A DNA stretch of 64,000 nucleotides from an uncultured Prevotellaceae bacterium (GTDB taxonomy: Bacteria > Bacteroidota > Bacteroidia > Bacteroidales > Bacteroidaceae). The notes below the pieces were generated by a model. That model had not been told where the DNA came from. It made no database searches and worked only from the letters and a program-made list of their open reading frames with translations. The stretch lies in contig ONMI01000001.1 in assembly GCA_900318915.1 (NCBI GenBank), forward strand, positions 56,712 through 120,711, given 5' to 3'. The position numbers and the translations under genes were made by a program. Positions 5,967 through 35,334 of the stretch are shown here, in pieces (positions within the stretch are counted from its first letter, which is position 1; each line of letters opens with the position of its first letter).

Positions 5967-5971
5967 CATTT

Positions 5972-6727: not shown

Positions 6728-6796
6728 GTCTTTTGTGTTTTTATGTCTTTTTATGTTTATATGTCTTTTTAATACCCTTTAATTTCCTTTTCAAAA

Positions 6797-11502: not shown

Positions 11503-11809
11503 ATAGTTGAACTCTATAGGGAGCGATAGCAGGTGGAATGTTTCAAATGGATTAAGCAGCGGCAGCACATCAAGTCGTTCTTGGAACGAGCCAGAATGCG
11601 GTCTACTTACAGATTTGGATTGCCATACGCGATTATCTGTTGCTTGCCATTGCTAAGAAAGTGTGCCATGTTGATCAAACCTTAATATTTAATCGGCTGC
11701 CATTGGGGAAGTGCTCTTTTAGAGAAAACCCTTAGGTGAGCTATTTGTTAAACCTAAACGTCCGTATAATGATTCCGATTATGGTCAACTGACTTTATGG
11801 GATTATTTT
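11503..11809 (+). pseudogene. Decayed IS4-type transposase, C-terminal remnant
   Basis: Joined across lesions, the frames give the familiar C-terminal signature of Bacteroides IS4-family transposases: ELYRER, a stop where Trp is expected, QVECFKWIKQ, then after a one-base deletion near 11582 GTSQNAVYLQIWIAI and LLLAIAKK. After another frame change come PLGELFVKPKRP and YGQLTLWDYF, resembling the family's end. The last frame runs without a stop into the next gene, explaining its open upstream extension. The N-terminal DD part is absent, so the copy is dead. It marks the junction between the GC-rich core and the AT-rich island. Confidence 0.8.
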
Positions 11810-11824: not shown

Positions 11825-14083
11825 ATGCTATACAATTTATATATCGAAGCAAACAAGCAAGCTCATATCGTTAGATTAGGTGAGAAGAAACAATCTCCCA
11901 ATCAGTATCTGACGATAAATACTGATGGGCTCGACGAACTCTTTACGATTGGCAAATCAATAAAACTGGTTTCATCGACAAGTATGGTCGATGACAGACA
12001 AGTCTTCATCGGGGATATTAAGCTTCAAGAAACGTCAGTCACCGTCTCTTTAAGTGATAAAAAGAATCCTAAAGAGACCTTCCCTTCAAATGATTGCATA
12101 CGCATTCGTTCAGGGAAAAAGGCTATTGTGTTTGAAAATATAATTGAGGGTCAAAATATATATTGTTCATTCAACGTTGTTTTCAAATATAAATGTTATT
12201 TAGGCGAAATTATAGTTCATTGTGTTCCTTCAAAAGATTTATATGATGTTGTATTAGATTTCGGTTCTGAGGCTAGTCAGATGTTGATAAGGCACAATGC
12301 TGATGGCGCAGGCGCTAAACCTCACCAATTGTTTTCTTATATGCTTCGTCATTATTGGAAGGCCGTCGTTGGTGGTCAGAGACGGGTGTATGACCAACAG
12401 GATGATAATCCGGAACTCTTTAGAAGTATTTTCTTCAAAAAAGAGAATGCTATTATGGATAGCAATTTCGAGTTGCAAGAGCCTAACGACCAAGATAGTT
12501 TTGTAAATTTCATAACTAGAAGAAATCGTAATTCGGGTGAAAGAATTCCTAATGTTAAAATTTCATTTTTAACAGGGCAACAAATAGAAGGAGCCGATAG
12601 AACTCGTTTGCATGTTGGTATCATCATGCGATTCTTGCATGAGGCTTTAAAACGCATAGGTGAAATGCAAAAGGAAGCTATGCGTGGGGTTGATGTGAAT
12701 ACTGCTATAAGATTTACAATTCTGCTTCCAAATGTGATGCCTCAATCAAATGTGTCTTCTCTAATTAAGAAGTTACAGGAACTAGCAAACACTCCTGAAT
12801 TTTTAAATAAATTCAGTGATTGTATAAAGGTTCCCTATATTCAGGTATCATGTTGCTCTGAAAGTGATGCTTCTTTCTTGGACCGAATGAATGTCATTGG
12901 GCTTAAATCTGGTGATAGATGTCTGACTATCGACATAGGAAAAGGGACAACCGATTTTTCTATAACCAAGAAGATAGATGCGAATAAGGCGACAAGTCTT
13001 TTTAGGTCTGGATTTGTTGGTGCAGGAAATGCACTTTCATATGCAATTTTTGATAATTGCATTGAACAAATGGTCGGCAAATCAAAAAAGACAGAAATGA
13101 TAAAAAGAGTACTTGACGCAGAGCCAGCTCTTTTGTTTGACCTCGATAATATCATAGAGGATATTAAGCACAACTGGGGCAAGAAAACATCATCAAAGTC
13201 GACATTGGCAGAAATCTCGTCAACTGCTTCAATTGAGGCTGTTCTTGATAGAATTAGAATGGCAAGAGGTGTTTCCGATTCAACTGGATCTGTTAAAAGA
13301 ATGGCTGAAGAAATCACGGATAATATTCTAAAGCGTCTTCCAGAAGTGAAAATAAACAAGATTGTTATCAGTGGTCGAGCCTTCCGTTTTAATGAGTTAA
13401 GAGATGTACTTACAAAGAAACTAGCAGAGAAATTTAGAGGCGTTAATTGTGTCTACGATGACAAATCCGCTAAAAGTGGCTGCCTGTTAGGAGCTTCTTC
13501 AAGCATCAAGCTAAGTTTGTCGTCTTCAATGGTTGGTTTGCCTTTCATTCTTGATGCATCGGAATTAGATCTTTCTAATCCAAAAGAATTTCTCAAAGAG
13601 ATTGCCGAGTCAGCCAACACTGATAAGAGTGTGACAACGACCATTAATTCTGTTGTTTCAAACAAGAGGTTAGAGTCTATTGCCAGAGTTGCAAACTCAA
13701 CGGTGAAGTTTGTTTCAGAATTGTTCAAGAATGACGATGAAGGCTACTCTCGTGGGTCGGTTTCATCACCGAAAGTATCAACTAATAGTTCAGATGAAGC
13801 ACGTGAACTTATGTCACAAGGAAAAGAATACTCAAAGATTAACTCTAATTCGTTGATCAGCATATCTGGAAGATATTACGTTCCAGCTGACCAATATACG
13901 ATTGATGATACTCATCGTCCATATCAGATATACTTTGATGGCGAAGAGTTTTATCTTAGACACAAAGAAGGCTCTCATAAATTGGTTGCTGCGGCTATGC
14001 AAGGAGATCAAAACTTGTGTTTTGAGAGTCAGTTCCCTTATTCTCGAACAATTTATAACGACGATTCAAGTATTCCCGATTAA
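11825..14083 (+). CDS. Actin/Hsp70-fold ATPase of the Ter island
   Basis: A 752-residue protein with the three nucleotide-binding signatures of the ASKHA (actin/Hsp70) fold: phosphate-1-like DFGSEAS at about 145, phosphate-2 DIGKGTTDFS at about 370, and adenosine-like IVISGRAF at about 513. An N-terminal beta-rich domain (1-140) precedes the ATPase core, and a low-complexity linker (about 620-670) leads to a short C-terminal domain. It is not DnaK: no substrate-binding domain is visible. I chose the ATG at 11825; the frame is open back to 11810 and beyond only because it continues a dead transposase. First gene of an operon whose other members are envelope and TerD proteins. Client unknown. 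Confidence 0.78.
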   Translation: MLYNLYIEANKQAHIVRLGEKKQSPNQYLTINTDGLDELFTIGKSIKLVSSTSMVDDRQVFIGDIKLQETSVTVSLSDKKNPKETFPSNDCIRIRSGKKAIVFENIIEGQNIYCSFNVVFKYKCYLGEIIVHCVPSKDLYDVVLDFGSEASQMLIRHNADGAGAKPHQLFSYMLRHYWKAVVGGQRRVYDQQDDNPELFRSIFFKKENAIMDSNFELQEPNDQDSFVNFITRRNRNSGERIPNVKISFLTGQQIEGADRTRLHVGIIMRFLHEALKRIGEMQKEAMRGVDVNTAIRFTILLPNVMPQSNVSSLIKKLQELANTPEFLNKFSDCIKVPYIQVSCCSESDASFLDRMNVIGLKSGDRCLTIDIGKGTTDFSITKKIDANKATSLFRSGFVGAGNALSYAIFDNCIEQMVGKSKKTEMIKRVLDAEPALLFDLDNIIEDIKHNWGKKTSSKSTLAEISSTASIEAVLDRIRMARGVSDSTGSVKRMAEEITDNILKRLPEVKINKIVISGRAFRFNELRDVLTKKLAEKFRGVNCVYDDKSAKSGCLLGASSSIKLSLSSSMVGLPFILDASELDLSNPKEFLKEIAESANTDKSVTTTINSVVSNKRLESIARVANSTVKFVSELFKNDDEGYSRGSVSSPKVSTNSSDEARELMSQGKEYSKINSNSLISISGRYYVPADQYTIDDTHRPYQIYFDGEEFYLRHKEGSHKLVAAAMQGDQNLCFESQFPYSRTIYNDDSSIPD

Positions 14084-14085: not shown

Positions 14086-14742
14086 ATGAAACATTTGTAT
14101 ATAGCTCTTATCGTACTGACATCATTGATACTATGTGCATTGGTAAGTCTGTATTTCTTAGGCAACATTTTGCTTGAACAAATGTTGCTTATGACTGCAG
14201 TCATGAATGGAATAGGTATTATTGTTTTCAGCATTATAAGGTTGCGGACTCCTGAATGTCCTAAGAATCAACATTTCCCTGAAGCTCAAATTATCGAGAC
14301 TCCAGTCCTTTCCGAACAGGTTAAAGAAACTACCGTATCATCTGTCCCCTCGGTTAGAAAACAATGGAGTAAAGCCATGTATAGAGTTTATGTCGACCGT
14401 TGGAACGAAGTCTTTGAAAATATTAAACATCCAATAGAAGAAACGTCAAAATCAGAAATTATGGTCCTGTGTTGGGATATAGCATCCAAAACAATGGACT
14501 ATCTTTTGGTTGAAAATGATGATCCAAATGTATTGGAGAGAAACAGAAACAGTGTGGATGCTGTTTTATCAGGGAAAAAAATATCAGAATTGAATCTCAA
14601 AGAGTTTTTTGATGATCCTTCAACCGTTCCTGCAAAAGTCATAGGTGTTCATGATGCATTATCTTCTCAACTCACAAAAGGACAATGTTTTTCAACCCAA
14701 GTTTTCGGTTATCTTGTAGAACTGTCTTCAAAAAATGGATAA
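14086..14742 (+). CDS. Two-TM membrane protein, unknown
   Basis: A 218-residue protein not assigned to a family. Residues 4-26 and 31-51 form two membrane helices, followed by a linker and a helical soluble domain from about 95 to 218, probably cytoplasmic. The gene starts 2 bp after the ATPase gene and overlaps the SEDS-PBP gene by 8 bp, so the three are translationally linked. It may tether the ATPase to the large membrane enzyme (inference). Confidence 0.7.
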   Translation: MKHLYIALIVLTSLILCALVSLYFLGNILLEQMLLMTAVMNGIGIIVFSIIRLRTPECPKNQHFPEAQIIETPVLSEQVKETTVSSVPSVRKQWSKAMYRVYVDRWNEVFENIKHPIEETSKSEIMVLCWDIASKTMDYLLVENDDPNVLERNRNSVDAVLSGKKISELNLKEFFDDPSTVPAKVIGVHDALSSQLTKGQCFSTQVFGYLVELSSKNG

Positions 14743-17700
14743 AAGATTATATATCCAAGCTCTAATACCGTTGGTATTAATTATAGGAATTAACTGCTTA
14801 TTTCCTATAACATTTACTGCGTATTTCCTCCTTTGTGCTTTTGCTTTATTTGCTAGTGTTTTCTGGAGCACTAGAGTTACTTGCTGGAGTATAATTACAA
14901 CGGCATCTGTGCTTGTAACTTTGAATTATCTGCGTCCAAGTTCAGATGTATACAATAATGCAGCACATCATGTTATTGCCTTAAGAGGCATGGAAAAGCA
15001 AGGGACTATAACTCTGGTTAATTCATCTGATCCTAAAAAAGCTCTGAACGATGGTGATCAGTATAACGGTTACTTGTTTGCGAAATTTGTTTCAAATAGG
15101 AATAGCATAGAAATTAGAGAGAAATTATCGTCGCAGCCTATTTATGTTTTTGACAAATCAATAGGTGATGAAGGTGCATATCGTTTGTTAAACGGAGAAA
15201 ATCTTATTCGATTTACAAAGAACATTAAGTTTTCTGTCGGTGGACATTCTGTTTCGCTATCATTGAGTAATGATGCCGATACATTAATTTGTAAGGCTGA
15301 ATTTGTTACGGATAGTAATCGTATTGCAAATTTAGCATTTAACAAAAAGATTAAAGAGGGTTACCCTATTGTTGATTTACTCCGTAGCGGAGGAAATTGC
15401 TCAGCAACAGAAGAAGACGTTTTGTCTTATGTTAAAGACGTATATGTTGTTAGAGAAATCATTTCATCAGATCATCTCTCTGATGACATATGGTATATTA
15501 CAGTAACACCAACTTTATATTCTGCTCTTAATCGGGAAGAAGTCACGATATCATGCGATAATCAAAAATACACTTATGCATTATGTGAAAGTAATCATGT
15601 TCTTAGCGAAGAACAAAAAATGTACTGGGGAGTAGGATCTTCAAAATCTCTTGCTATTTACTTTTGTGGTATTGAAGGTGATGGTATAGAGATGAATTAT
15701 GATATGCCTATAATGTATAATTTCCCTGCTGATTCGATTGGATGTTGCAATAAGATAGCAGCTATATCATCTTCGAGTGATGATTTACTGTCCTCTGAAA
15801 TCAAGGAAGCCTTTTTCTTTGATATGTTTACGAAAAAAGGAAACGAGTTCAACTTTAGTGGAACTATCTCATACCAGACTGCAGCAAGTCCAGCTCCTTT
15901 AAGTGTTAACATTTTAGATGCCAATCAAGATAAAGGAAAGAAAGTCATTGCTTCCACAAATAACTCTAATCATTTTCAACTTACTACGAAAAAGGGGCAT
16001 GCGAAATGGAATGTCTCTATCGTAAATCTTAGAGAGATAAGCCCGATTGATGAGGCTGCGAATCCATTTATAAGTGAATGGTTATTGATAGGTATTATCC
16101 TTTTTGTCAGCTTGTTTACTATACTCACATTAGTTATCTTCTCTGACGGTGGCTTGAACACCTATAAGGCAACTTCGGTGTTTAACATATGGAGTTTTTT
16201 TGTTCCTTTGGTAACTTTGCGCTTGTACCTTTTGTGGCGTATTGCAGTGTTTCCACCTACAACAAACATTACAAAAGCAGAGTTTCTTCGTTATCGAATG
16301 GAAAACGGCCTAACACAAAATGCGATGGCGTTAACTCTGTTTTGCATAGGTGTGCTTGTCCTCCTGACAATAGGATTGTGCATCTATGAGAAAGTCTTGA
16401 AACAAAAGTCTTTAGCTATTTCTCTTTCAGAGAAACAGGGGCTGTATGTTTATGTAGTGTCTTTAATTGTGGCAGTTGCGTCTATGTTCTCAGGACTTGT
16501 GCTTGGTAATATTATGATGCCAGTTTTGGTGTTCTTCATAAATGAGTATATCTGCCTTAAATATCTTAAGTTACCATATAGAATCTTAAATATACTTGTG
16601 GTTATGGCATTACTTGTTAAGGGTGATCCTGGATATGCCATAATGTTTGTGATATTCGTATCTGTATATTTTATTATACAGACAATTGTGTTCCGTAATT
16701 CGGAATCAACAGATAGAGCTGAACGAAATGCAGCATGGAATTTATGCTTGATGCTTTCGGTATTAGTTGGTACAATTATTATCTTTGCGCCACAACTTGT
16801 AGCTTGCTTGTTTGACAACTCTACCATATTGGGTATAGGACTCCCATCTTGGATTTTTGCAATAATCTCTACCGTCTTTTTTATAGCGACCATACGACTC
16901 ATCTATATCTATTATGGTAATAAGTTAGCAGGTATTGCTATTATATCTGCCTTTATTCTTATTCCAACGATAAGTATTGTCGGCCCTTCTTTCTTGAATA
17001 ACAACAAACATGTCAAGTATCGTTCTCTTATTCATACACAAGACGTTGGACAGATAATGATGAATGAGAATGTAGCTGAACGAGACAATCAACGCCTTCT
17101 TGAAGCATCACAAAATCAATGGTTCTTGCAATACCATTCTAATTTGGGAGAAAAGCGGGTTCTTGACGATGGAATCCTACATCTCTATCCTCACTTCAAA
17201 AAGGGTGTGTCATGGAGCACACAGATAAGTGACGTTATTTGTTCTCGCTATATAATTGGCGAATTATCTCTGATTGTGCCTTTAGCAATGATTTGTTTTG
17301 TCATTGTATTTTTCTTGTTTTCATTGAAACATGCCAGTGAATCTCCTGTTGGTAAATCTGTATCGTATGGTATAGCTTTATTATTCTTAATACAAACAAC
17401 ATTCGTTTGGATGGCTAATACCAATAGAATGATTTTCTTTGGCCAGGACTTTCCTTTCATGAGTCAAAATGCTCGTATCACGATGCTCATGTTCTGTTTG
17501 CTTCTTTTCATGATGATGTGCTCATCTGGAAGAGACGAGAGTGATGATAGCGTAGTGGAAAGCAGATTGTCAAATAATGGTTTTGATTATTTTAATCATA
17601 AACCTTTGAAATCATTTATGGTATTGTTCTTCGTCATTTTTGGAGTGGTATTTATGTTTGGCAACAAGTACTCTTCATTGTATCATACAGATCAGGCTAC

Positions 17701-19873
17701 TGCATTTAATGCCGGAGAAGCTATGATGCAGGCGGAGAAGGATTTAGATAAGATTAATGCACATTTAGCTACATTTGCTGCCAAAAAGAAATTAAAACCA
17801 AATGGCGAAAATCTTACAAAACTTTTTGACGAGATAAACAATACAATAGGTATTGACAACTATGTTAAAACGCTTGAAGAGAATGGTGAAATACAGCCTT
17901 TCTCAGCTTCTCTGTATCATGCATTCCGCAATAATTTGCAGTTAGATAATAGGATAGATAATATCATTCATCTTCAGTATATTTCTGCAGCTAAAGCATA
18001 CAAATTTGCACTAAATAATGGTTTTTATAGCCTTCGCACACCCGAAATGCAGAAAATGTTATGGAGTGGAAATGTCTATGCATACGATGATAAGCATGAC
18101 ATGGATAATTTGCTTGTCTCTTCCGGTAGCACTGACAAGATTGACATATACAGGATCCCAAGATCTTGGCTCATGGATGACTCTCAGGATATCGGTATCG
18201 CTGATGTAAGATACACTCGTGGCGATTGCGATATCGTTTTGAGATCACCTCTATGTGATTATCGTATCAATGAAGCCAAAGTCTTCGTTTTAAATCTGAA
18301 TGAATGTATTGAGACAAGAATAGGAAATACCATTTATCTAGATCAGTTATCAGGCAGAAAGGAGAAACTGTTGGCAAAGAATATGATTGTCAATGGCCAA
18401 AATAGATTCTTCTACCCAATGGGTAAAAGTCTTTTCTGGATAAAAGATTTCTCCGAAATGCTAGCATCTCAATCTTATGATAGTAAGAATAAAAACTGTG
18501 AGTTGACTCTTGACAAAGATCTTTTGGGAAACATATATGATATTCTTGATGGTACCAAGAAGACATGTTCTGTAGTTGCTCTTGATGGAGATGGCAATGT
18601 ACGTCTCCTGGCAGAGTACAACTCTAGGGATGAGTACAATCTTGATCCGAATAATACAATTGCCATAGAACGCTTTGTAGAACAGAGCTATCTCAATCCA
18701 AATTACTCAGAAGACTCAAAGATATTTGGCAACCAAAATTTGGTTTATATGCTTCCTGGTCCGGGTTCATCATTAAAGCCAATTACATATGCTGCTGTTA
18801 CATCCCAAACAAGTTCTGTAGATTGGGCTTCTTTGAGACTTCATGCTCCAAAATCAGATTTCATGTCGCCTGATTATCGATACTATTTGATGAAAGAGTT
18901 CGGCCCTGATTATAAGTACTCAGATAAAGTTCCATTCAAGTCAATATGTGGAGATGAAAACGGAAAGGATGGATGGGTAGATAATGATTTCTATCTCTAT
19001 AAATCTTCAAACTACTATAATGCTTTGGTTACCTACTTCGGCAACTATGACATTGGTGAGCTAAGTAATCTATCTCAGATTATTGAGCCAACGTCAGACA
19101 TGTCAAACTTTCCTGTATTCGAGTTGAATGGAAAAACTTATAAGTTCAAGAACTCTCCTAATAAGGATAGACAGAATAGTATTCTGAATACAGCCTTGGC
19201 ACTTAACTTCAAAATGAAAGTGGCTTTGGATGCAAAAGATTCTACAAGATTTGTATCTGAAGAATGGTCGCGTAGTGCAAAAGTTGCAAATCATCCATGG
19301 GTATTTCCAGCGTCATCAAATGCATATCTGCAACAGATGCGTGATCTACCGTCAGAAGCTCTTAGACTAAAACAATACACACTTGGTTCAAGCCCATTGC
19401 GTATTACACCTTTAATGATGGCAGAAATGTATGGTAGGCTGTATTCTCTACATCCCGACTTTTATGCGTGCATAACAAAAAATAAGAATGTTCAGAAAGA
19501 GATATGGGATGTTCCAAATGGCAAAAGGCAAGATGAAATGTTCGACTTCTACAAGAAGAACTTGTTCCGAGGTATGGCGAACTGCGTTTCCATTGGTACA
19601 GCATCTAAACATCTGTCAGGTGTTGACAAGAAAGACAAGTATTTCTTATATGCGAAAACGGGAACACTTACCCTTGGCGATAATATAAAAGATGACCGAA
19701 TGCTTGCAGTAATCATTACAAATCGTGATTTGAGTCAGGTGACTGATCCAAAGGACTACAAGTTCTATGTGGTCTACTTCCGCTTTAAGCAAACGGGCGA
19801 AATGTACAACGTAAGCAAGGTTATTAACCAAATAATCGGAAGCAAGTCATTCTCTACCTACATGAGTATATAA
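14735..19873 (+). CDS. Giant SEDS-penicillin-binding protein fusion
   Basis: A 1712-residue protein. Residues 1-70 hold about three membrane helices, then an extracytoplasmic beta-rich region (70-440). From about 447 to 930 come roughly ten helices. Their last part resembles the SEDS (FtsW/RodA) C-terminus: STQISDVICSRYIIGE near 829 parallels the HTDFIFAVIGEE-type motif, and FFGQDFPFMSQNARITM near 902 parallels the LPFxSYGGS motif. One more helix (about 960-976) leads to a periplasmic transpeptidase domain with all three active-site motifs: SxxK (SSLK, S1345-K1348), SxN (SSN, 1424-1426) and KTG (1641-1643). SEDS proteins polymerise lipid II and class B PBPs cross-link; normally they are separate chains. 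The SEDS catalytic Asp could not be pinned down. Confidence 0.8.
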   Translation: MDKRLYIQALIPLVLIIGINCLFPITFTAYFLLCAFALFASVFWSTRVTCWSIITTASVLVTLNYLRPSSDVYNNAAHHVIALRGMEKQGTITLVNSSDPKKALNDGDQYNGYLFAKFVSNRNSIEIREKLSSQPIYVFDKSIGDEGAYRLLNGENLIRFTKNIKFSVGGHSVSLSLSNDADTLICKAEFVTDSNRIANLAFNKKIKEGYPIVDLLRSGGNCSATEEDVLSYVKDVYVVREIISSDHLSDDIWYITVTPTLYSALNREEVTISCDNQKYTYALCESNHVLSEEQKMYWGVGSSKSLAIYFCGIEGDGIEMNYDMPIMYNFPADSIGCCNKIAAISSSSDDLLSSEIKEAFFFDMFTKKGNEFNFSGTISYQTAASPAPLSVNILDANQDKGKKVIASTNNSNHFQLTTKKGHAKWNVSIVNLREISPIDEAANPFISEWLLIGIILFVSLFTILTLVIFSDGGLNTYKATSVFNIWSFFVPLVTLRLYLLWRIAVFPPTTNITKAEFLRYRMENGLTQNAMALTLFCIGVLVLLTIGLCIYEKVLKQKSLAISLSEKQGLYVYVVSLIVAVASMFSGLVLGNIMMPVLVFFINEYICLKYLKLPYRILNILVVMALLVKGDPGYAIMFVIFVSVYFIIQTIVFRNSESTDRAERNAAWNLCLMLSVLVGTIIIFAPQLVACLFDNSTILGIGLPSWIFAIISTVFFIATIRLIYIYYGNKLAGIAIISAFILIPTISIVGPSFLNNNKHVKYRSLIHTQDVGQIMMNENVAERDNQRLLEASQNQWFLQYHSNLGEKRVLDDGILHLYPHFKKGVSWSTQISDVICSRYIIGELSLIVPLAMICFVIVFFLFSLKHASESPVGKSVSYGIALLFLIQTTFVWMANTNRMIFFGQDFPFMSQNARITMLMFCLLLFMMMCSSGRDESDDSVVESRLSNNGFDYFNHKPLKSFMVLFFVIFGVVFMFGNKYSSLYHTDQATAFNAGEAMMQAEKDLDKINAHLATFAAKKKLKPNGENLTKLFDEINNTIGIDNYVKTLEENGEIQPFSASLYHAFRNNLQLDNRIDNIIHLQYISAAKAYKFALNNGFYSLRTPEMQKMLWSGNVYAYDDKHDMDNLLVSSGSTDKIDIYRIPRSWLMDDSQDIGIADVRYTRGDCDIVLRSPLCDYRINEAKVFVLNLNECIETRIGNTIYLDQLSGRKEKLLAKNMIVNGQNRFFYPMGKSLFWIKDFSEMLASQSYDSKNKNCELTLDKDLLGNIYDILDGTKKTCSVVALDGDGNVRLLAEYNSRDEYNLDPNNTIAIERFVEQSYLNPNYSEDSKIFGNQNLVYMLPGPGSSLKPITYAAVTSQTSSVDWASLRLHAPKSDFMSPDYRYYLMKEFGPDYKYSDKVPFKSICGDENGKDGWVDNDFYLYKSSNYYNALVTYFGNYDIGELSNLSQIIEPTSDMSNFPVFELNGKTYKFKNSPNKDRQNSILNTALALNFKMKVALDAKDSTRFVSEEWSRSAKVANHPWVFPASSNAYLQQMRDLPSEALRLKQYTLGSSPLRITPLMMAEMYGRLYSLHPDFYACITKNKNVQKEIWDVPNGKRQDEMFDFYKKNLFRGMANCVSIGTASKHLSGVDKKDKYFLYAKTGTLTLGDNIKDDRMLAVIITNRDLSQVTDPKDYKFYVVYFRFKQTGEMYNVSKVINQIIGSKSFSTYMSI

Positions 19874-19885: not shown

Positions 19886-20335
19886 ATGAAAACATCTTAT
19901 TTGATTATAGCGTTATTGGTTGTGCTTATCCTATCTGTATTAGCATACTTTAGACTGACAGCAAAGGTTTATTCTTCATTTGCTGTTGAGGACATGCCTG
20001 TTGATTCAAAAGAATTTGTATGGGTTCGTATGGACTCTCTATCAAAAGGTCTTATGGATATTTCAGGCACAGAGATTAAGGTTGATTCCACAAAATCAAA
20101 GGCTTACATAATTACATACACTTCTAAAAAATACTTGCTTCATGAAGTCATAGAAGGCATAGAAACAAACAGGAAACATCTTCTTGAAAACGCAAAAGAT
20201 TTAATGAAATATAAGGAAGATGGCAGCAAGGTTGAAATATCACTAAAAAAGAAAGATAAGTTTGTCTATTGTCCTGTGTTGATTCTTGATAGAATTTTAT
20301 ATTGGAAAAATAAGCAATCCACTAAATTAGATTAA
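19886..20335 (+). CDS. Membrane-anchored small protein, unknown
   Basis: A 149-residue protein with one N-terminal membrane helix (5-24) and a mixed alpha/beta soluble part, probably extracytoplasmic. No family recognised. It lies 12 bp after the SEDS-PBP gene and 6 bp before the TerD-tail gene, so it belongs to the same operon. Confidence 0.65.
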   Translation: MKTSYLIIALLVVLILSVLAYFRLTAKVYSSFAVEDMPVDSKEFVWVRMDSLSKGLMDISGTEIKVDSTKSKAYIITYTSKKYLLHEVIEGIETNRKHLLENAKDLMKYKEDGSKVEISLKKKDKFVYCPVLILDRILYWKNKQSTKLD

Positions 20336-20341: not shown

Positions 20342-21463
20342 ATGAGTATATTCAATCAAAATCTGAAATCTCCGTTGGAGGTAATAGTTGAGTGGGTGCG
20401 CAACTCTTCTGTGCCACCACTAACGCTTAGTATCTCTGCGCTTATGCTCAATAAGGATGATGTCATCAATAGATTAGAGGATTTCGTTTTTTACGGAACC
20501 CCTAATAAAGGCAATGATATTATTTCATCGGACAAGAGTGTTACTTGCGATGCACTTAACTTCGAGAAAGGTTTCGGTACAGAGAACTCGTACAAGATGA
20601 ATCTTGAATTAGGGAGGGTGTCAGCAAATGTCGATCGTATTAATATTGTGGTTAGTATCAATACTAAAGGCGACAATACACAGCTTCCTGCTTTTGATTC
20701 TTTAACCAAAGCGACATTCTCAATAAAAGATGCTGCAGGTTTAACATTTACAACAGACCTTAACAAAACAGGTGAATCGTCTTGTAGATGCATATCCGTT
20801 GGCTTAGTACGTCGTTATGCACAGTTTTGGAGATTTGAAGAGGAGATGGAGCTAAAACTTGGAGGTCTGGAACTTGTTTACAACGAGTACATGAGTGATT
20901 CTATTAAAAAAAATTATCCTTTCTCAAAGATTGGAGATTTAAGTCTTATAGAGAATAGGTATAAGAAGACTACAAAAACTACAAACATTTCTAAGGATGG
21001 TTCCAAAAGCATCATAGAAAAAACAGTTGAAATGATTACAACCCAATTGGGTAAAATAGCAGGGACGATTGAACCACAGAAGCCCTGGAAAGTTGCAATT
21101 CCTATAAATCCTATGCTAGGGGGTAATTCAGCTGGAGTTAATTCAAATAAAGAATATAAAGAATCCGGTCATAGAGAGGGGAAGAAATGGTCAGCACTGA
21201 TACCCCAACAGCATAAAACAGAAAATAATGGTTTAGAAACTAAAGATTCTATGCAAAAAGGTGGAGAAGATAAGCCTTGGAAAAGTCAGATACCCCATTC
21301 ACCTAACGATTCTGGAACTTGTGAAGGTGCAAGTACACCGATAGAAGACACTAATTATTCTTCGGCAAAACCAAAGAAAAATCAAATTGTATCACGGACT
21401 GCAGGTTCGTCAAATAAAAACGAGAATAAACCTTGGAGTAATATTATTCCTAACAAAAAATAA
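20342..21463 (+). CDS. TerD-like protein with repeated W-x3-IP tail
   Basis: Residues 1-190 look like a divergent TerD domain (FVFYGTPNKGNDIISSD; RINIVVSINT; RRYAQFWRFEEEMELKLGG). Residues about 200-373 are polar and probably disordered, and carry four copies of a short motif, K-[PK]-W-x3-I-P, starting at residues 247, 281, 311 and 363; the last lies at the extreme C-terminus. Such spacing suggests several docking sites for one partner. TerD domains bind Ca2+. The gene is in the membrane-enzyme operon rather than beside the classical ter genes. Confidence 0.75.
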   Translation: MSIFNQNLKSPLEVIVEWVRNSSVPPLTLSISALMLNKDDVINRLEDFVFYGTPNKGNDIISSDKSVTCDALNFEKGFGTENSYKMNLELGRVSANVDRINIVVSINTKGDNTQLPAFDSLTKATFSIKDAAGLTFTTDLNKTGESSCRCISVGLVRRYAQFWRFEEEMELKLGGLELVYNEYMSDSIKKNYPFSKIGDLSLIENRYKKTTKTTNISKDGSKSIIEKTVEMITTQLGKIAGTIEPQKPWKVAIPINPMLGGNSAGVNSNKEYKESGHREGKKWSALIPQQHKTENNGLETKDSMQKGGEDKPWKSQIPHSPNDSGTCEGASTPIEDTNYSSAKPKKNQIVSRTAGSSNKNENKPWSNIIPNKK

Positions 21464-21479: not shown

Positions 21480-22181
21480 ATGGCAGATTTTTTTGAAGCT
21501 GGTGATTTCACGAAAACACTGAAACTCGCCGATGAATTGGTTTTTACCAAGCAAAAATTTAGTAAAATCAAGGTTGAACTTTCTTGGGAAGGAGACGACC
21601 TTGACTTGTGTGCATTCATGGTTGATGCCAAGAACAAGGTTAAAAATAAACTTGACCTCGTTTACTTTGGTTCTGAACGTAGATGGTTAACTACGAAACC
21701 TTTTAATGCTCCCGATTTTGATCCACTTGAAGGCAGAGTAAGCGTATGGGAGAATGATGCAGAACGTAACTTTAAGAATGACGACAAGTGGAAGGAAAGA
21801 ACTCTTCCTTTGTCTCTTGACGATTCTGTAATTGGTTCTTGGGATGACGCTGGAAATGGCGCATGTGGTGAAAGAATGCATGTGTTACTTAAAGAGGTTG
21901 ACACAAGAAAATACAAATCCATTGTATTTGCTGCTGTAGTCGCAGAATCAGACCTTGAAGAAGGGTTGACATTCTCAGATGTAAAGAATCCTTATGTTCG
22001 CATCTATGATGCTGAGACAAACAAGACTCTTGCAGAGTATCGATTGAATCAGGATTTCCCGGGTAAGGGTTCTGTGTGTTTTGGTAAACTAACTATTGAT
22101 TCTGACAAACGTTGGAAGTTTGTCGCGATGGCAGAGGCATATGATGGAGGTATGTATTATCTTGCAAAGGAAGTGTTCTAA
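21480..22181 (+). CDS. TerD-family protein
   Basis: A 233-residue TerD-fold protein. The hallmark acidic loop is present (VELSWEGDDLDLCAFM, near residue 40), as are DDSVIGSWDDAGNG near 110, PYVRIYDAETNKTLAEYRL near 180 and the closing RWKFVAMAEAYDGG. It has an extra segment around residues 60-100 compared with 190-residue TerD or TerE. The known role of the family is Ca2+ binding in tellurite, phage and colicin resistance. It is separated by 16 bp from the preceding TerD-tail gene. Confidence 0.85.
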   Translation: MADFFEAGDFTKTLKLADELVFTKQKFSKIKVELSWEGDDLDLCAFMVDAKNKVKNKLDLVYFGSERRWLTTKPFNAPDFDPLEGRVSVWENDAERNFKNDDKWKERTLPLSLDDSVIGSWDDAGNGACGERMHVLLKEVDTRKYKSIVFAAVVAESDLEEGLTFSDVKNPYVRIYDAETNKTLAEYRLNQDFPGKGSVCFGKLTIDSDKRWKFVAMAEAYDGGMYYLAKEVF

Positions 22182-22192: not shown

Positions 22193-22699
22193 ATGGCTAA
22201 TGATTTGTTTACAAAAGAAGATTTTGTAAAAAAAGGAAAAGTATCAAATCCTTGGTACAAGAATTGGAAGATTCTAACCCCAAGTGCATTAGTGTTGGCT
22301 GTTGCTAGTGTTATAGGAATCTCACAATTTAATAGTAGTGGAGGAAATGGTCAAACACATCAAAAAACTGACACCATTACTATTGATAGTGTTACTAAAA
22401 AGACACCCATAATCACTCCTGACAGTTTGACTGTAACAGAAGAAATTGGTGATTCTATCAATGAAGAGGCTGAAAAGGACATCTCAAAAACAGTAAATAA
22501 GACAGGCAAAATAGAATCAGCAAACACGAATATCAGTAAGACCTCTGATTCCCATTTCGATAATGTAGAAGAAGAAGCATTGTCTGTAATTCGAGGTAAC
22601 TACGGCAATAATCCAGAACGTCGCCGTTTGCTTAAAGAACGCTACCAAGAGATACAAAACAAGGTTAACGAAATGTATCGAAACGGTCAAGTGAAATAA
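22193..22699 (+). CDS. Single-TM protein with CW_7-like C-terminal module
   Basis: A 168-residue protein with a short N-terminal cytoplasmic stretch, one membrane helix (about 29-45), a Thr/Ser/Lys-rich linker, and a C-terminal module at about 126-165. The module has VIRGNYGNNPERRRLL followed by Y-x2-IQNKVNEMY. This pattern (GxYGN-x2-ER-x2-L, then VQ-x2-VN) matches CW_7 (Cpl-7) repeats, which bind peptidoglycan muropeptides. That would place the module in the periplasm, next to the SEDS-PBP product. Last gene before a strong terminator. The CW_7 call is by eye. Confidence 0.65.
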   Translation: MANDLFTKEDFVKKGKVSNPWYKNWKILTPSALVLAVASVIGISQFNSSGGNGQTHQKTDTITIDSVTKKTPIITPDSLTVTEEIGDSINEEAEKDISKTVNKTGKIESANTNISKTSDSHFDNVEEEALSVIRGNYGNNPERRRLLKERYQEIQNKVNEMYRNGQVK

Positions 22700-25368: not shown

Positions 25369-25926
25369 ATGGCAATATCATTGGAAAAAGGACAGCGCAT
25401 TGGAATTGGACTGTCGAAAGTAAGTGTAGGACTTGGATGGGATCCCAATGAGGGGTCGGGGTTTGATTTTGATTTGGATGCTTCGGCATTCATGCTTGGT
25501 GAGAACAGGAAACTCCCTAAAGATGAGTTCTTCGTTTTCTATAACAATCAGAAATCACCTGATGGTGCAGTAGAATCTACAGGTGATGACCTTACTGGAG
25601 GTAACAGCGACGGTGGTGATGACGAAACACTGAATGTTGACTTAGCAAAGGTTAATCCACAGATTCAAGAAATTATTTTCACTGCAACAATTTATAAGGC
25701 TGAAGAGAGAAAACAGAATTTTGGTCAGGTTCGTAATTCGTACATTCGTATCTATAACTCTATTACGAATGAAGAAATTGCTCGTTATGACCTTGATGAA
25801 GATTTCTCTATTGAGACAGCAGTAGAGTTCGGCCGTCTCTATCGTCGTAATGGAGAATGGAAATTCGAAGCTATGGGTATCGGTAATAAGGGCGGCTTAC
25901 AGGCTCTAGTCAATAAATACCAGTAA
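25369..25926 (+). CDS. terD: TerD/TerE Ca2+-binding protein
   Basis: A 185-residue classical TerD/TerE protein, close to the usual 190. Key features are GLGWDPNEGSGFDFDLDASAFM near 25-47 (acidic Ca2+ site), STGDDLTGGNSDGGDDETL near 73-91 (second acidic site) and YIRIYNSITNEEIARYDLDEDFS near 125. TerD paralogues bind Ca2+ and take part in tellurite, phage and pore-forming colicin resistance. First gene of the ter block, followed within 2 bp by the TerA-like gene. Confidence 0.92.
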   Translation: MAISLEKGQRIGIGLSKVSVGLGWDPNEGSGFDFDLDASAFMLGENRKLPKDEFFVFYNNQKSPDGAVESTGDDLTGGNSDGGDDETLNVDLAKVNPQIQEIIFTATIYKAEERKQNFGQVRNSYIRIYNSITNEEIARYDLDEDFSIETAVEFGRLYRRNGEWKFEAMGIGNKGGLQALVNKYQ

Positions 25927-25928
25927 AT

Positions 25929-26564
25929 ATGGCTATTATCCTCGAAAAGTCAGGCGATCAGCATCGAATCAATCTTGAAAAAGGTGGCTCTTCTTTCTCC
26001 GGTGAGATAATTATAAATCTCGACTGGAGCAAAGGCGGCCTTCTTAAGCAAATGTTTGGAAAACCTGTTGACCTTGATTTGGGCTGCTTTTACGAATTGC
26101 GTGATGGTTCAAAAATGCTCATAGATGGGCTTCAGTTCTCCCATGGTAGAGGTGGCAATCGTCATCAAGTAACTCGACAAGGCTGTTACGACCAAAAACC
26201 TTTTATATGGCATCAAGGTGATGACCGTGGTGGAGGCTCATCGTCAGGTGAAACCATTCTAGTCAACCCCCAAGGTGTAAATGAGATAAAACGAATAATC
26301 GTTTATACTTTTATATTTGAAGGTGCTGCTAAGTGGGCGGATACAAATGCAGTTGTAAAAGTAAAAGTTCCAGGCAATGAAGACATCATTGTGGAAATGG
26401 GACAACAATCAAGCAACCAACGCTTTTGTGCCATTGCCGAACTCGATTTTGGAGGAGATAACTCTATTACGGTTAAAAAACTTGTTACATTCCATGGTAG
26501 TCACAGCGAATGTGACCGTCAATATGGTTGGGGATTTAATTACAAACCAGGTAGTAAAGACTAA
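25929..26564 (+). CDS. TerA-like protein
   Basis: A 211-residue TerD-superfamily protein. GEIIINLDWSKGG and DLDLGCFYELRDGSK near 30-65 show the TerD core. The C-terminal half has RFCAIAELDFGGDNSITVKKLV and FHGSHSECDRQYGWGFNYKPGSKD, matching the C-terminal domain of TerA. TerA is normally longer (about 380 residues), so this may be the single-domain form. Lies between two terD-type genes with gaps of 2 and 11 bp. Confidence 0.8.
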   Translation: MAIILEKSGDQHRINLEKGGSSFSGEIIINLDWSKGGLLKQMFGKPVDLDLGCFYELRDGSKMLIDGLQFSHGRGGNRHQVTRQGCYDQKPFIWHQGDDRGGGSSSGETILVNPQGVNEIKRIIVYTFIFEGAAKWADTNAVVKVKVPGNEDIIVEMGQQSSNQRFCAIAELDFGGDNSITVKKLVTFHGSHSECDRQYGWGFNYKPGSKD

Positions 26565-26575
26565 AACATACGAAT

Positions 26576-27241
26576 ATGGCTATAAAACTTGAAAAAGGAC
26601 AGCGCATCAATCTTGAAAAAAGAAGTGGCGCAAAACTTACCAACTTTTGTGTAGGTTGCAATTGGGGGGCTATTACTAAGAAATCTTTCTTTGGACTGAC
26701 GACAACAACTGTTGATGTTGACTTGGATTTGAGTTGTTTGTTATTCAACGAGAAAGGCGAAGTTGTTGACCACATCTGGTCTCCGTTATATAATTTGGGA
26801 AAAGTAGGGCTTCCTAAAGGTAAGCTTGATTCAAATGACCGAGCTCTACATCATACAGGAGATGACCTTACTGGAGACCAGAATGGTGACGACGGCTTGG
26901 ATAATGAGATCATCACAGTTGACCTTAATCGTGTCAGCAGTAATGTTAATTCTATTGTGTTCTTCTTGAACATATATAATAATAATGATTATCAAGGAGA
27001 TTTCTCTGGCATTCCTTACGCATCCATCCGCATGTATGAAGGAACACCAACCAAAGTAAATGAAGTCTTTGCACAATATGATGTTGCAACTAAAACTGAC
27101 TGCGTCGGTAAGAGGGCATTAGTAATGGGCAAACTCTATCGACGAAATGGTGAATGGAGGTTCGCTGCTATCGGTGATGCTTTTGATGATAAGATCATCG
27201 CTCTCACTATTGCAAGGGTAGCAAAAGACTATAATAAATAA
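26576..27241 (+). CDS. TerZ/TerD-family protein
   Basis: A 221-residue TerD-superfamily protein nearer to TerZ. KLEKGQRINLEK opens the protein, with acidic sites VDVDLDLSCLLFNEKG near 43 and HTGDDLTGDQNGDDG near 92, and YASIRMYEG then RALVMGKLYRRNGEWRFAAIGD at the end. The YRRNGEW block is shared almost exactly with the TerD gene at 25369, indicating duplication. Confidence 0.85.
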   Translation: MAIKLEKGQRINLEKRSGAKLTNFCVGCNWGAITKKSFFGLTTTTVDVDLDLSCLLFNEKGEVVDHIWSPLYNLGKVGLPKGKLDSNDRALHHTGDDLTGDQNGDDGLDNEIITVDLNRVSSNVNSIVFFLNIYNNNDYQGDFSGIPYASIRMYEGTPTKVNEVFAQYDVATKTDCVGKRALVMGKLYRRNGEWRFAAIGDAFDDKIIALTIARVAKDYNK

Positions 27242-27252
27242 AAACATTAATT

Positions 27253-27891: not shown

Positions 27892-27908
27892 CAAATATCT
27901 AATAACCT

Positions 27909-31357: not shown

Positions 31358-32404
31358 ATGAGACGATTACCTATTTATTTTTTGATAGATGTATCAGAGT
31401 CAATGGTGGGAGACCCCATCACTCAAGTAGAGAATGGAATGAGGAATATAATCCAAGAGTTAAGAACAGATCCTTACGCTCTTGAAACAGTCTTCGTGTC
31501 TGTTATCGCTTTTGCTGGAAAAGCAAAGAATCTTTCTCCTTTAACGGAATTATATAAGTTCTATCCTCCACAATTCCCTATTGGAGGCGGCACATCCTTG
31601 GGGACTGCATTGAATTTTCTAATGGATGACATAGACAAGTCGGTCCAAAAGACGACTGCAGATATGAAAGGTGACTGGAAACCAATCATTTTCCTGTTCA
31701 CAGACGGTACTCCTACTGATAATCCAAATCCTGCTATAGACAGATGGCAGAAACATTTCAAGACTAAATGCAATCTTGTCTGTATATCATTAGGAGATAA
31801 TGCAGACACGCATCTTTTAGGGAAACTGACAGAGAATGTCCTCCGTCTGAAAGAAACGGACGAGTATTCTTTCAAAGCTTTCTTCAAGTGGGTAACAGCA
31901 TCCATTAAAACCAGTAGTGTTTCCGTTACAGATACAGGCATGGACGATATTCAATTGGCCCCAATGGATGGAATCAATTTGGAGAAGGTAAACACCGAAG
32001 AGAATTGTATTATTGATGAGAACTTTGCCGTACTATTAGGGAAGTGCTCAAATACAAAGAAAACGTATTTGGTTAAATATGCAAAACGAATTGGTGATAT
32101 ACGGGGATTGGAAAGTCTTGGCATTAAAGCAACTGACTATAAACTCGTCGGTGCATATCCAGTAGATGAGGAGACATATAATAGCCTTAGTGAAGGGAAA
32201 TCTAATCGCAGTATCAATACAATGTCTCTTCGTGGGGTTCCCACTTGCCCCTGTTGTGGCAACCAATTTGGCGTAGTGGTCTGTGAGTGTGGAAATATAA
32301 TGTGCTCTGACGGAAAGACAGCTTCATGTCCTTGGTGCGGAATGGAAGGCTATTTGGGTGAAGGAGAAGAAGGTGGAATGAACATAACAAGAGGACGAGG
32401 ATGA
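31358..32404 (+). CDS. TerY vWA protein with C-terminal zinc ribbon (triad member)
   Basis: A 348-residue protein. The N-terminal vWA (1-200) has MIDAS DVSESM near 11 and TDGTPTD near 116. A linker leads to a C-terminal zinc-ribbon-like module with CPCC, CECG, C and CPWC pairs near 290-335 (TerY-C type). The stop overlaps the PP2C gene by 4 bp. This vWA + PP2C + kinase order is the TerY-P triad described in comparative work on Ter systems. The expected role is to bring the kinase and phosphatase to the TerD complex. Confidence 0.88.
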   Translation: MRRLPIYFLIDVSESMVGDPITQVENGMRNIIQELRTDPYALETVFVSVIAFAGKAKNLSPLTELYKFYPPQFPIGGGTSLGTALNFLMDDIDKSVQKTTADMKGDWKPIIFLFTDGTPTDNPNPAIDRWQKHFKTKCNLVCISLGDNADTHLLGKLTENVLRLKETDEYSFKAFFKWVTASIKTSSVSVTDTGMDDIQLAPMDGINLEKVNTEENCIIDENFAVLLGKCSNTKKTYLVKYAKRIGDIRGLESLGIKATDYKLVGAYPVDEETYNSLSEGKSNRSINTMSLRGVPTCPCCGNQFGVVVCECGNIMCSDGKTASCPWCGMEGYLGEGEEGGMNITRGRG

Positions 32405-33801
32405 AATCACATATCGAACGTTTCCTGTTGGGAATATTACACCGGAATGGAATACAGCCAACACAGTATGAACTTGACGATTTTATCAATCGTGAGGTTT
32501 GTGGATTGTGGAACAAAGTTGCTAAAGAACGTATGGATGAAAGACTGATTATAAAGAATGCTGTAGATACAGCTAATATAATTCTACCCAATGGACGTGT
32601 AGGAGAACAATATAAAGCAGATGTCTCTTTCTGCATAAATGGCGTTCTGGATTATATCATAGAAGGACTTGATGCTGTGAAATTGGCCTATGAGAAAACC
32701 GCCAAGGGGTTCGTTATTACAGGAACTGCACAGCCCGAAGACATTAAAGGAGGTGATTTTCCCCTAATTCTTCGCTATAAGCCCAAAGGACTTCTCGAAG
32801 GCGAAGAATGGTTGGAGAGGAAACTGACACTTATTCTTAATCCAGACCCAAAGACTTTATGGAAAGACATCCCGACGCCAAGAGATACAGTATATTATAA
32901 GGAGGACTCTCAAATGCAGTATGTAAAAGTAGAGGAGAAGGATGGCGTTCCTTGTAAGGATATTGTTGCCGCAAGTCAACGTGGCCGCTCCCATGCTCAT
33001 GAAGGTAAACCACGGGATGACCATTTCCTCCTACATTACTGTGATAAAACAGAGTGGTATATCATAGCGGTAGCCGATGGCGCAGGCTCCGCCAAGTATT
33101 CTCGAGAGGGTTCAAAGATTGCATGTGAAACTGCTGTTGCACATTGCAAAGCCGCATTGGCAGACAGTTCTGAGTTCGAGAACGTTATTCGGCAGTTCGC
33201 AGACAATGCAGAGTCACAGGAATCAAGGAAACTTGTTGGTGACGAAATCTATAGAATAGTAGGTAATGCCGCATTGAAAGCACACAATGCCATCAAGAAA
33301 GAAGCAGAGCGAAAAGAGGACGCAAAGTTGAAAGACTATGCGACAACCCTTCTTCTAGCCATCTGCAAACGCTTTGAATTCGGATGGGCAGTAGCCTCTT
33401 TCTGGGTTGGCGATGGGGCCATGTGCATATACGATGCTGAAAAGCACTCTGCTGATATGCTAGGAATGCCTGATGAAGGTGAGTTTGCAGGGCAAACCCG
33501 CTTTTTAACTATGCCTGAGATTTTTGCCAACACTGCATCTTTCTATAAAAGACTACGTTTCAAGATATATCCTGATTTCACTGCACTGATGTTAATGACA
33601 GATGGTGTTAGCGACCCGAAGTTTGAGACAGATGTAAATTTGCAAAATCCAGAGAAATGGGATGCTCTTTGGAAAGATCTTGCGGAAAATGGAGTGGAAC
33701 TTACTGATGATAATGAGAAGTCGAAGGAGCAACTACTCAACTGGCTCAATTTCTGGGACAGAGGAAACCATGATGATAGAACTATAGCAATATTGTATTA
33801 A
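32401..33801 (+). CDS. PP2C-type protein phosphatase of the TerY-P triad
   Basis: A 466-residue protein. Residues 1-190 form a domain of unknown family, and 200-466 the PP2C fold with metal-binding motifs RDDHF near 202, VADGAGSA near 223, VGDGA near 338, TDGVSD near 401 and NHDDRT near 457. It removes phosphate from Ser/Thr, expected to oppose the adjacent kinase. The start overlaps the terY stop (ATGA) and the kinase follows after 15 bp. Confidence 0.9.
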   Translation: MKSHIERFLLGILHRNGIQPTQYELDDFINREVCGLWNKVAKERMDERLIIKNAVDTANIILPNGRVGEQYKADVSFCINGVLDYIIEGLDAVKLAYEKTAKGFVITGTAQPEDIKGGDFPLILRYKPKGLLEGEEWLERKLTLILNPDPKTLWKDIPTPRDTVYYKEDSQMQYVKVEEKDGVPCKDIVAASQRGRSHAHEGKPRDDHFLLHYCDKTEWYIIAVADGAGSAKYSREGSKIACETAVAHCKAALADSSEFENVIRQFADNAESQESRKLVGDEIYRIVGNAALKAHNAIKKEAERKEDAKLKDYATTLLLAICKRFEFGWAVASFWVGDGAMCIYDAEKHSADMLGMPDEGEFAGQTRFLTMPEIFANTASFYKRLRFKIYPDFTALMLMTDGVSDPKFETDVNLQNPEKWDALWKDLAENGVELTDDNEKSKEQLLNWLNFWDRGNHDDRTIAILY

Positions 33802-33816
33802 CAAAAGGAGGTCTAT

Positions 33817-35334
33817 ATGCCAAACATTATAAAACTGCCAATCAAACTGCTTGCACAAAATGCGCCTATTCGTAGTAGTCAAGTTGAATTCTATGACGAG
33901 ATAAGGGCACAAGGTGGTGTAAAGGATGTCTATTTTAGCTGTGATAAAACTTATGTTGTTGCGTTCTATCGTAAACAGTTAGATGCAAACGACAAAGACC
34001 GCCTTGAAAGAATTGTCAGCACTTATTATCCTCGAATTTTCGATGGAACAGCCATTGGAGAATATTGGCGAGAAAAATTGTACCTGCCCTGTGGCATCGT
34101 TGACTGGAATGGGAAGTTGGGGGTAATTGTCCCTTTTTACAACAAACGATTCTTCTTTAGTGGTATTCCTGCTGATTATCCATATATTAAGAACGGGCAG
34201 GAGAAGGATGGGAAACGTTTTGCCTCAGCTAAGAACATGAATCGTTTTGTTCCTTCAGACCAAAAAGGAACTTGGCTGAACCGGCTTCACATGTGCATTC
34301 AGATAGCACGTGAAGTGAGAAGATTACATGCAGCAGGATTGGCACATTCTGATTTGTCCTATAAAAATGTTCTTGTAGATCCCGTTACGGGTAGTGCATG
34401 CATCATTGACGCTGATGAAGTAGTTGTACCAGGAAGATATCCTCCAGGAGTTATAGGTACACCAGACTTTATTGCACCAGAAGTAATGGCAACAAAGGGA
34501 CTTAAAATTGATGATCCTAACAGACGGCTTCCCAGAATCGAGACAGACCGCCATGCATTGGCAGTTCTTATATATATGTATTTGCTCAATCGTCATCCTC
34601 TAAGAGGCGGTAAGGTTTGGGATACTGACTCTGCAAAAGATGAAGAACTAACGATGGGTTCCAAAGCTTTGTTTATTGAGAACCCTATTGACTCAAGTAA
34701 TAGGGTAAAAGTTGATCAGTTGGGAAAAGCAGAGCTTCCGCAAGGTGATCCAAGCAAACTCCCATACTCTATTTGTGGCCCTTATCTGAAAGACCTTTTC
34801 AACAAAGCATTTATCGACGGTCTCCACAATCCGTCTTTACGACCTACTGCTCAGCAATGGGAGGATGCTTTAGTAAAGACCGCTGACTTGGTTCAGCCTT
34901 GTCAGAACCCTAATTGCGAAAACCACTGGTACGTCTTTGACAATACTCGAAAACCTAAATGTCCATTCTGTGGCACTGAGTATAAAGGACAGTTGCCTAT
35001 ACTGAATTTCTATTATAAACCAAGGGATAAGTATCAGTATGAGAATCATCGACTGATGGTGTATAATGGACAGACTTTATACAAATGGCATTCAAATAAT
35101 TTGGTTCCCATTGGCGAAAAGACAAATTCTGAAGATAAAAAGCCTGTTGGAGATTTCCACTTTCATAGTGGTCAATGGATTCTTATAAACCGTCGCTTGC
35201 CTGACATGTATGATGTGACAGATAAAAAGCCTGTTCCTATAGGTGGCTTTGTACCATTAACGGATGGAAGGCAAATACTCCTAGATAAAAGCCAAGGTGG
35301 GCGTCTCGTAATTGTTCAACTTGTTAAAAACTGA
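33817..35334 (+). CDS. Protein kinase with zinc ribbon (TerY-P triad)
   Basis: A 505-residue protein. The kinase domain (about 25-360) has VVAFYRK, catalytic loop HSDLSYKNVL near 184 (variant of HRDLxxxN), metal motif DADE near 205 in place of DFG, and GTPDFIAPEV as an APE motif. A zinc ribbon follows (CQNPNCENHW to CPFCGTEY, about 365-395), then a beta-rich C-terminal domain. This is the expected third member of the TerY-P triad. A purine-rich AAAGGAGG sits just upstream, a rare good Shine-Dalgarno here. Confidence 0.9.
   Translation: MPNIIKLPIKLLAQNAPIRSSQVEFYDEIRAQGGVKDVYFSCDKTYVVAFYRKQLDANDKDRLERIVSTYYPRIFDGTAIGEYWREKLYLPCGIVDWNGKLGVIVPFYNKRFFFSGIPADYPYIKNGQEKDGKRFASAKNMNRFVPSDQKGTWLNRLHMCIQIAREVRRLHAAGLAHSDLSYKNVLVDPVTGSACIIDADEVVVPGRYPPGVIGTPDFIAPEVMATKGLKIDDPNRRLPRIETDRHALAVLIYMYLLNRHPLRGGKVWDTDSAKDEELTMGSKALFIENPIDSSNRVKVDQLGKAELPQGDPSKLPYSICGPYLKDLFNKAFIDGLHNPSLRPTAQQWEDALVKTADLVQPCQNPNCENHWYVFDNTRKPKCPFCGTEYKGQLPILNFYYKPRDKYQYENHRLMVYNGQTLYKWHSNNLVPIGEKTNSEDKKPVGDFHFHSGQWILINRRLPDMYDVTDKKPVPIGGFVPLTDGRQILLDKSQGGRLVIVQLVKN

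Follow-up and report, generated by a model that had tools for sequence, protein, structure and literature searches.

A candidate single-chain SEDS-like/transpeptidase synthase with an actin-like partner in Bacteroidota, adjoining Ter genes in one branch

The window analyzed here, a stretch of 64,000 nucleotides from an uncultured Prevotellaceae bacterium (GenBank assembly GCA_900318915.1, contig ONMI01000001.1, positions 56,712 to 120,711), contains an operon that encodes a fusion of a SEDS-like membrane part with a transpeptidase of the penicillin-binding protein (PBP) type. Both parts of the fusion are homologous to the respective enzymes of peptidoglycan synthesis, their aligned catalytic residues are invariant among the relatives that we identified, the gene order of the operon is conserved, and an actin-like ATPase encoded in it co-occurs with the fusion. 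Sequence comparison points, with a probability that we put at about 0.6, to an extra, self-contained peptidoglycan synthesis module that consists of an actin-like protein and a SEDS-PBP synthase and that, in one branch, has been joined to Ter genes. Coordinates below refer to the window, and the core genes with their motifs, the adjoining Ter genes, the TerY-P-type triad, and the P-type ATPase are all on the + strand.

The fusion gene (14735..19873) starts with ATG and remains open, without interruption, for 1712 residues, exactly the frame that had been picked out in the sequence-only reading of this DNA. The protein comprises N-terminal transmembrane (TM) segments and a soluble stretch, the SEDS-like membrane part, another TM segment, and the transpeptidase. 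We aligned it with eight relatives that are 58 to 23% identical to the window protein; each of these nine members, 1712-2100 amino acids in length, is a single open chain, which rules out a sequencing artefact as the origin of the fusion. Hydropathy averaged over the alignment yields two to three peaks at the N-terminus, followed by about 390 residues free of peaks, then about 12 peaks within residues 449-931 (adjoining segments were merged by hand, and the count is 13 if 573-601 is counted twice), and one further peak at 962-971, preceding the transpeptidase domain. The central membrane region thus lies where the sequence-only reading had placed it, the figure of about ten helices given there being slightly low. 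Among five stretches for which the mean pair identity was measured, the two catalytic ones are the best conserved, namely, residues 756-935 (0.374, the highest) and 1250-1700 (0.322), compared to 0.21-0.23 in the other three. The soluble N-terminal stretch (14912-16084, approximately residues 60-450) matched no Pfam family and none of the four profiles tried.

The SEDS-like part (residues 447-935; 16073..17539) was recognized by hhalign comparison with nine FtsW proteins (probability 96.3, P=1.8e-9), in an alignment of 174 columns that extends from the large periplasmic loop to the last TM segment. The same comparison gave P values of 0.26 for MraY, 0.54 for a P-type ATPase, and 0.15 for the reversed query against all SEDS proteins; the score against all SEDS proteins was 69.1, compared to at most 17.6 in 40 column shuffles, so the match is beyond chance. 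With equal sets of eight sequences, the P value was 9.5e-9 for FtsW and 5.1e-3 for RodA; accordingly, an origin from RodA was rejected as the weaker match, and the SEDS-like part appears to lean to FtsW. D833 (17231..17233), which is invariant in all nine members, aligns with the catalytic aspartate in the loop between TM helices 7 and 8, D297 of FtsW and D262 of RodA, the mutation of which abolishes activity, as described in passages of PMC10449877 and PMC8765783. The motif GQDFPFMS (residues 903-910; 17441..17464) is the counterpart of GQPLPLIS in most of the FtsW sequences read, and within it G903, P907, and S910 are invariant (9/9). Two further pairings were made by eye. One, beyond the span of the hhalign match, equates D631-P-G633 (16625..16633) with QPDLGT of FtsW, with D631 and G633 present in all nine members and the proline not conserved; the other equates Y762-R763, present in eight of the nine, with FtsW Y242-R243. 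A large loop followed by three hydropathy peaks is the arrangement expected of a SEDS protein, and the total comes to about 12-13 peaks versus ten TM helices in SEDS.

Several observations weigh against taking this part for a working polymerase or, more broadly, against the assignment of the fusion to wall synthesis. The hhalign match covers only the C-terminal half of the SEDS-like part; additional hydrophobic segments occur in the first half, where inspection by eye found no clear equivalent of the W138 loop, and a weak single-sequence match to residues 450-539 in the search of order genomes (G546, E=9.7e-4) led to an open reading frame (ORF) that, judged by eye, is flippase-like and not SEDS. 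Of the SYGG motif near the last TM segment, the serine is kept and both glycines are missing in 9/9 members, with A913 at the position of FtsW G381, where, as described in part of PMC8765783, the G381D substitution blocks septal synthesis. No Pfam or NCBIfam domain model matched the window protein at E<=1, and PF01098 (FtsW/RodA/SpoVE) matched none of the nine members at this threshold; hence the profile search that had been suggested for the FTSW_RODA_SPOVE and Transpeptidase domains, when run with Pfam, retrieves neither from the window protein. Sequence searches of the PDB with the fusion returned nothing useful, and its profile matched no SEDS structure. Because the SYGG glycines are gone, the first half is unaligned, and the window protein does not reach the Pfam cut-offs, we call this part SEDS-like and keep it out of the SEDS family proper.

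The absent glycines, the fact that only half of the SEDS part is recognizable, and the extra hydrophobic peaks all fit an alternative in which the transpeptidase works, and the SEDS-like part, devoid of glycosyltransferase activity, serves as a lipid II holder, an anchor, or a scaffold. Such an explanation appears rather unlikely, given that the aspartate aligned with D297 is invariant along with D631, G633, G903, P907, and S910, and that residues 756-935 are the best conserved of the five stretches measured.

The transpeptidase domain (residues ~1250-1700; 18482..19834) matches PBPs in hhalign with P=1.8e-10 and with the SxxK and SxN motifs in register, whereas the controls gave P values of 0.73 (SEDS), 0.29 (MurD), and 0.036 (P-type ATPase); the score of 94.2, against at most 19.9 in 30 column shuffles, places the match beyond chance. 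The KTG region was matched to PBPs in a separate profile comparison (P=1.3e-5). The three motifs, invariant in 9/9 members, occupy the positions and the order reported in the sequence-only reading: SxxK at 1345 (S1345-S-L-K1348, within PGSSLKP, which pairs with PGSTVKP in the alignment to E. coli FtsI; 18767..18778), SxN at 1424 (S1424-S-N1426; 19004..19012), and KTG at 1641 (K1641-T-G; 19655..19663). Profile comparison and conserved catalytic residues together bear out the claim, made in the same reading, that a SEDS-like part and a transpeptidase are combined in one chain. The domain fits FtsI (9.7e-6) and PBP2 (1.4e-5) about equally well; because of this near tie, the designation "divisome-like" rests on the SEDS-like and actin-like parts. 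The match to class A PBPs, for which the set was smaller, with two sequences, is weaker (1.8e-4). Also on the unfavorable side, the Pfam model PF00905 did not match the window protein and was found at E<=1 in two of the nine members (best E=0.0014). The pedestal domain of class B PBPs (PF03717) was not among the Pfam matches of the window protein or of the nine members. A PDB search with the PBP part recovered PBP chains at E values of 0.14-0.59, mixed with the unrelated EZH2/EZH1 at 0.095-0.6; since unrelated proteins score alike, this search was left out of the evidence.

A constant partner that the sequence-only reading did not mention is the actin-like ATPase (752 amino acids; 11825..14083), encoded two genes upstream of the fusion, with the start placed at the ATG at 11825 by homology (the mechanical ORF begins with TTG at 11810). 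The columns of the DxGS (phosphate 1), DxGKGTxD (phosphate 2), and GxxF motifs are invariant in 9/9 members, and the phosphate-2 and adenosine regions align with FtsA in hhalign, where the P values were 5.6e-7 for FtsA, 1.7e-4 for DnaK, 8.2e-4 for MreB, and 0.46-0.72 for unrelated controls. The protein therefore seems to lean to FtsA, and an origin from MreB was rejected as the weaker match, in a comparison biased by set diversity: the FtsA set is the more diverse (mean identity 0.30, against 0.59 for MreB), a bias in favor of FtsA that counts against this assignment. Among the FtsA, MreB, and HSP70 models of Pfam, the best for the window protein was MreB-like_C, below the cut-off at 12.4 of 27.8 bits; over the nine actin-like members, the values were 0.0034 for DDR (3/9), 0.0076 for Ppx-GppA, 0.056 for MreB-like_C, and 0.078 for FtsA, none over the cut-off, and a PF06723 search of the bacterium's own genome missed the protein. 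A PDB search with the actin-like profile (pelota 0.013, MreB 0.3) was likewise left out of consideration.

The actin-like gene and the fusion gene are separated by a gene for a membrane linker protein (218 amino acids; 14086..14742) with one or more N-terminal TM segments and a soluble C-terminal domain that probably faces the cytoplasm, and the fusion gene is followed by one for a small bitopic protein with a single N-terminal TM segment (149 amino acids; 19886..20335). The order actin-like ATPase, linker, fusion, small bitopic protein recurs in 9/9 loci, the linker ORF being partly masked in one of these; the similarity among the linkers is weak, with a C-terminal GY in seven of the eight readable sequences, and that among the small proteins, which are alike in size and layout, is weak as well. 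Neither of the two window proteins reaches any Pfam cut-off. Between 11825 and 22699, neighboring genes of the window either overlap or are separated by at most 16 base pairs; promoter-like and terminator-like sites are about as numerous as in shuffled sequences. Just upstream of the actin-like gene (11571-11728), there is what looks like the remnant of an IS4-family transposase, 50% identical (E=8e-7) to one annotated as IS4, which is in keeping with horizontal arrival.

The distribution of the fusion is patchy. Full-length forms were found in five of the 201 genomes of the family (own genome included), in one named uncultured Prevotellaceae genome (L014), in one further genome among 393 of the order, and in two further ones among 395 of the class. 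The profile of the nine-member alignment matched 43 of the family genomes; five of these carry the fusion, and in the remaining 38 the match is limited to profile positions ~874-1016 and lies in ORFs of 407-513 amino acids. Among 395 phylum genomes, seven matched, namely, the own genome, G661, and five with FtsW-like matches, with no further fusion. All 21 outside loci that we inspected (two from the class search, five from the phylum search, and 14 from the family profile search) look like FtsW, 19 beside murG and two beside an apparent murD. The SYGG-type pattern is present in 19 of them; the other two, weak matches from the class search (L029 and L030), read as FtsW from sequence and from their position before murG. 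The profile of the actin-like protein, run over the 201 family genomes, gave a strong match in exactly the five that carry the fusion; one weak match elsewhere (5.8e-4) is an FtsA, named from its sequence and its location just upstream of ftsZ. No relatives of the fusion or the actin-like protein were found in viral contigs, or of the fusion in plasmids and phages. The ordinary wall synthases are encoded elsewhere in the genome, PBP2 with RodA and an upstream mreB on contig 57, and the FtsI-FtsW pair on contig 61, where mur genes accompany it (names from gene order), so the fusion is an additional protein; no FtsZ was detected among the 30 window proteins scanned.

Behind the core, the window operon continues with genes for a TerD-domain protein (20342..21463; PF02342, E=1.1e-11), a second TerD-domain protein that starts with an FxxxDFxK-type peptide (21480..22181; PF02342, E=1.4e-22), and a bitopic protein (22193..22699) that consists of an FxxxDFxK-type peptide, a TM segment, a linker, and a C-terminal CW_7 peptidoglycan-binding repeat (PF08230). 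The repeat exceeds the cut-off in the bitopic proteins of all four loci scanned (window, L014, L017, and L020). In these same loci, the N-terminal peptide was found in eight of 636 ORFs, two per locus, one TerD protein and the CW_7 protein, and it is missing from the second TerD-like protein of L020; the pattern was derived from the same proteins and is informative only as absence elsewhere. Perhaps, the peptide is a common docking signal.

TerD genes are found close to the core in these same four of the nine loci; they follow it directly in the window, L014, and L017, and lie ~8 kb upstream in L020. Three other loci (L025, L034, and L036) have the core and no TerD found next door, and a TerD search of host genomes gave no match in G038, G276, and G903. 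In two genomes, G193, a draft of many contigs, and G661, the TerD match is on another contig only; L015 and L018 are near contig ends, where a neighboring TerD is possible. The weak TerD of G116 (26.1 bits) escaped the genome-wide search, so other weak forms may do so as well. Ter is thus not a constant partner of the core, and the loci that lack TerD lead us to reject an exclusive Ter function. The proposal of a one-chain peptidoglycan synthase for envelope repair when the Ter system is on retains its one-chain, SEDS-like plus transpeptidase half and loses the dedication to Ter; likewise, the suggested survey of genomes for the fusion beside TerD did find the combination and did not find it to be constant.

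The rest of the island lies outside the conserved core. A TerY-P-type triad of TerY (VWA and TerY_C domains), PP2C, and kinase genes (31358..35334) is ~9 kb from the operon; PF15616 and PF13672 are over the cut-off, and the kinase (E=3.8e-7) is 1.5 bits below it, at 30.2 of 31.7 bits. Upstream of the triad, within 25369-30790, are further genes for TerD (25369, 26576), VWA (27253, 28381, 30218), and UPF0114 (29021) proteins; downstream of the Ter genes (35767-41293) are those for a metallo-beta-lactamase-fold protein, an SPFH/Band 7 protein, and a P-type cation ATPase (38297..41293). The last of these, 16 kb downstream of the operon, is closer to the core in L014, in L017 (identified by the start of its sequence and split over two ORFs), and in L020, where a 1041-amino-acid protein without a Pfam match at E<=0.05 is encoded between it and the core (G116, 3700-6825 of the locus). 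Elsewhere, an FHA protein neighbors L018 and a DUF4407 protein L036.

That the island also encodes TerY, PP2C, and a kinase, and that an FHA protein neighbors L018, would fit a role as wall-damage receptor. Muropeptides or drugs would then be detected by the PBP-type domain and the CW_7 protein, and the signal would be passed on by way of the actin-like ATPase and the Ter kinase/phosphatase genes, with no wall synthesis involved. Sensor PBP domains, such as that of BlaR, do exist. The CW_7 repeat of Cpl-7 binds the muropeptide GMDP, as reported in part of PMC5705596. A receptor, however, would have no need of a SEDS-like part whose catalytic aspartate is conserved, and the three loci with the core and no TerD found beside it speak against the idea as well; we regard it as improbable. 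Still less probable, to the point of being quite doubtful, is that the fusion acts within a TerY-P-type anti-phage island, as an effector by which the wall is repaired or reshaped during infection. TerY-P triads act against T7-like phages, according to a passage of PMC7699616, but the triad is distant from the operon and no part of the conserved core, and none of the PADLOC models matched the fusion, the actin-like protein, TerY, or PP2C, the kinase alone having four weak matches (best, mad6, 2.8e-6).

Returning to the synthesis module, we infer that it is enzymatically active, coupled to actin, assisted by its small proteins, and, in some loci, under stress control. The SEDS-like part would polymerize lipid II at the periplasmic face, and the fused transpeptidase would crosslink the strand, so that a chain of fixed 1:1 composition takes the place of the usual paired proteins. 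The FtsA-like ATPase in the cytoplasm would position or switch the synthase through the membrane linker, on the model of FtsA with FtsWI and MreB with RodA-PBP2, and the small bitopic protein would assist in the periplasm. In the one branch where the core lies beside TerD and an FtsN-like CW_7 protein, wall building could be linked to a calcium/phosphorylation stress signal; such control appears plausible only where TerD and CW_7 adjoin the core.

The fusion family and its core operon, in which genes for an actin-like ATPase, a membrane linker, the fusion, and a small bitopic protein follow one another in conserved order, seem to be new, in that we did not find them in the literature covered. 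Most subscription journals were outside the scope of this survey, which returned nothing on TerD with SEDS, on TerD or TerY with actin-like proteins, or on a SEDS fusion in Bacteroidetes. The earlier remark that a fusion beside Ter genes is not known to have been described stands to this extent; SEDS-PBP fusions as such are already in print, in a passage of PMC10449877. If the module is what it seems to be, it would represent a third wall machine beside the divisome and the elongasome (treated as a pair in part of PMC8078798), would provide a natural enzyme of fixed stoichiometry for studying the coupling of polymerization and crosslinking, would show how wall machines arise, and would link the Ter islands, which are poorly understood, to a concrete and testable downstream process, namely, wall building.

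Comparison with known systems brings out both the familiar and the unusual aspects of this module. The natural single ORFs that PMC10449877 mentions, with reference to the Rhodococcus RHA1 genome, likewise join SEDS and PBP; class A PBPs also unite a polymerase and a crosslinker in one chain, but there the polymerase is GT51, whereas here it is SEDS-like. The CW_7 protein resembles FtsN in having a short cytoplasmic peptide, a TM segment, a linker, and a wall-binding end, a likeness of layout alone, with no sequence homology claimed, given that FtsN ends in SPOR and this protein in CW_7; the cytoplasmic peptide of FtsN acts on FtsA, as a section of PMC8078798 that describes this layout reports. 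The same source, in part, describes the divisome and the elongasome as each coupling a pair of SEDS and class B PBP to an actin-like protein. With MreB and RodA-PBP2, the module shares this three-part logic, differing in its weaker matches to RodA (5.1e-3) and MreB (8.2e-4). A third actin-directed wall machine that combines an FtsA-like actin, a single-chain FtsW-like/transpeptidase, and an FtsN-like CW_7 activator, patchy in Bacteroidota and with one branch wired to a TerD circuit, is a tentative extension of these parallels, to which we give somewhat less than an even chance. The closest counterpart is FtsA with FtsW-FtsI, which has the same combination of actin-like ATPase, SEDS polymerase, and transpeptidase, and two components of which, FtsW and FtsA, are the nearest relatives identified; unlike that system, with its separate chains, the module described here has one chain, an extra N-terminal stretch, and an operon of its own, in addition to the ordinary pairs.

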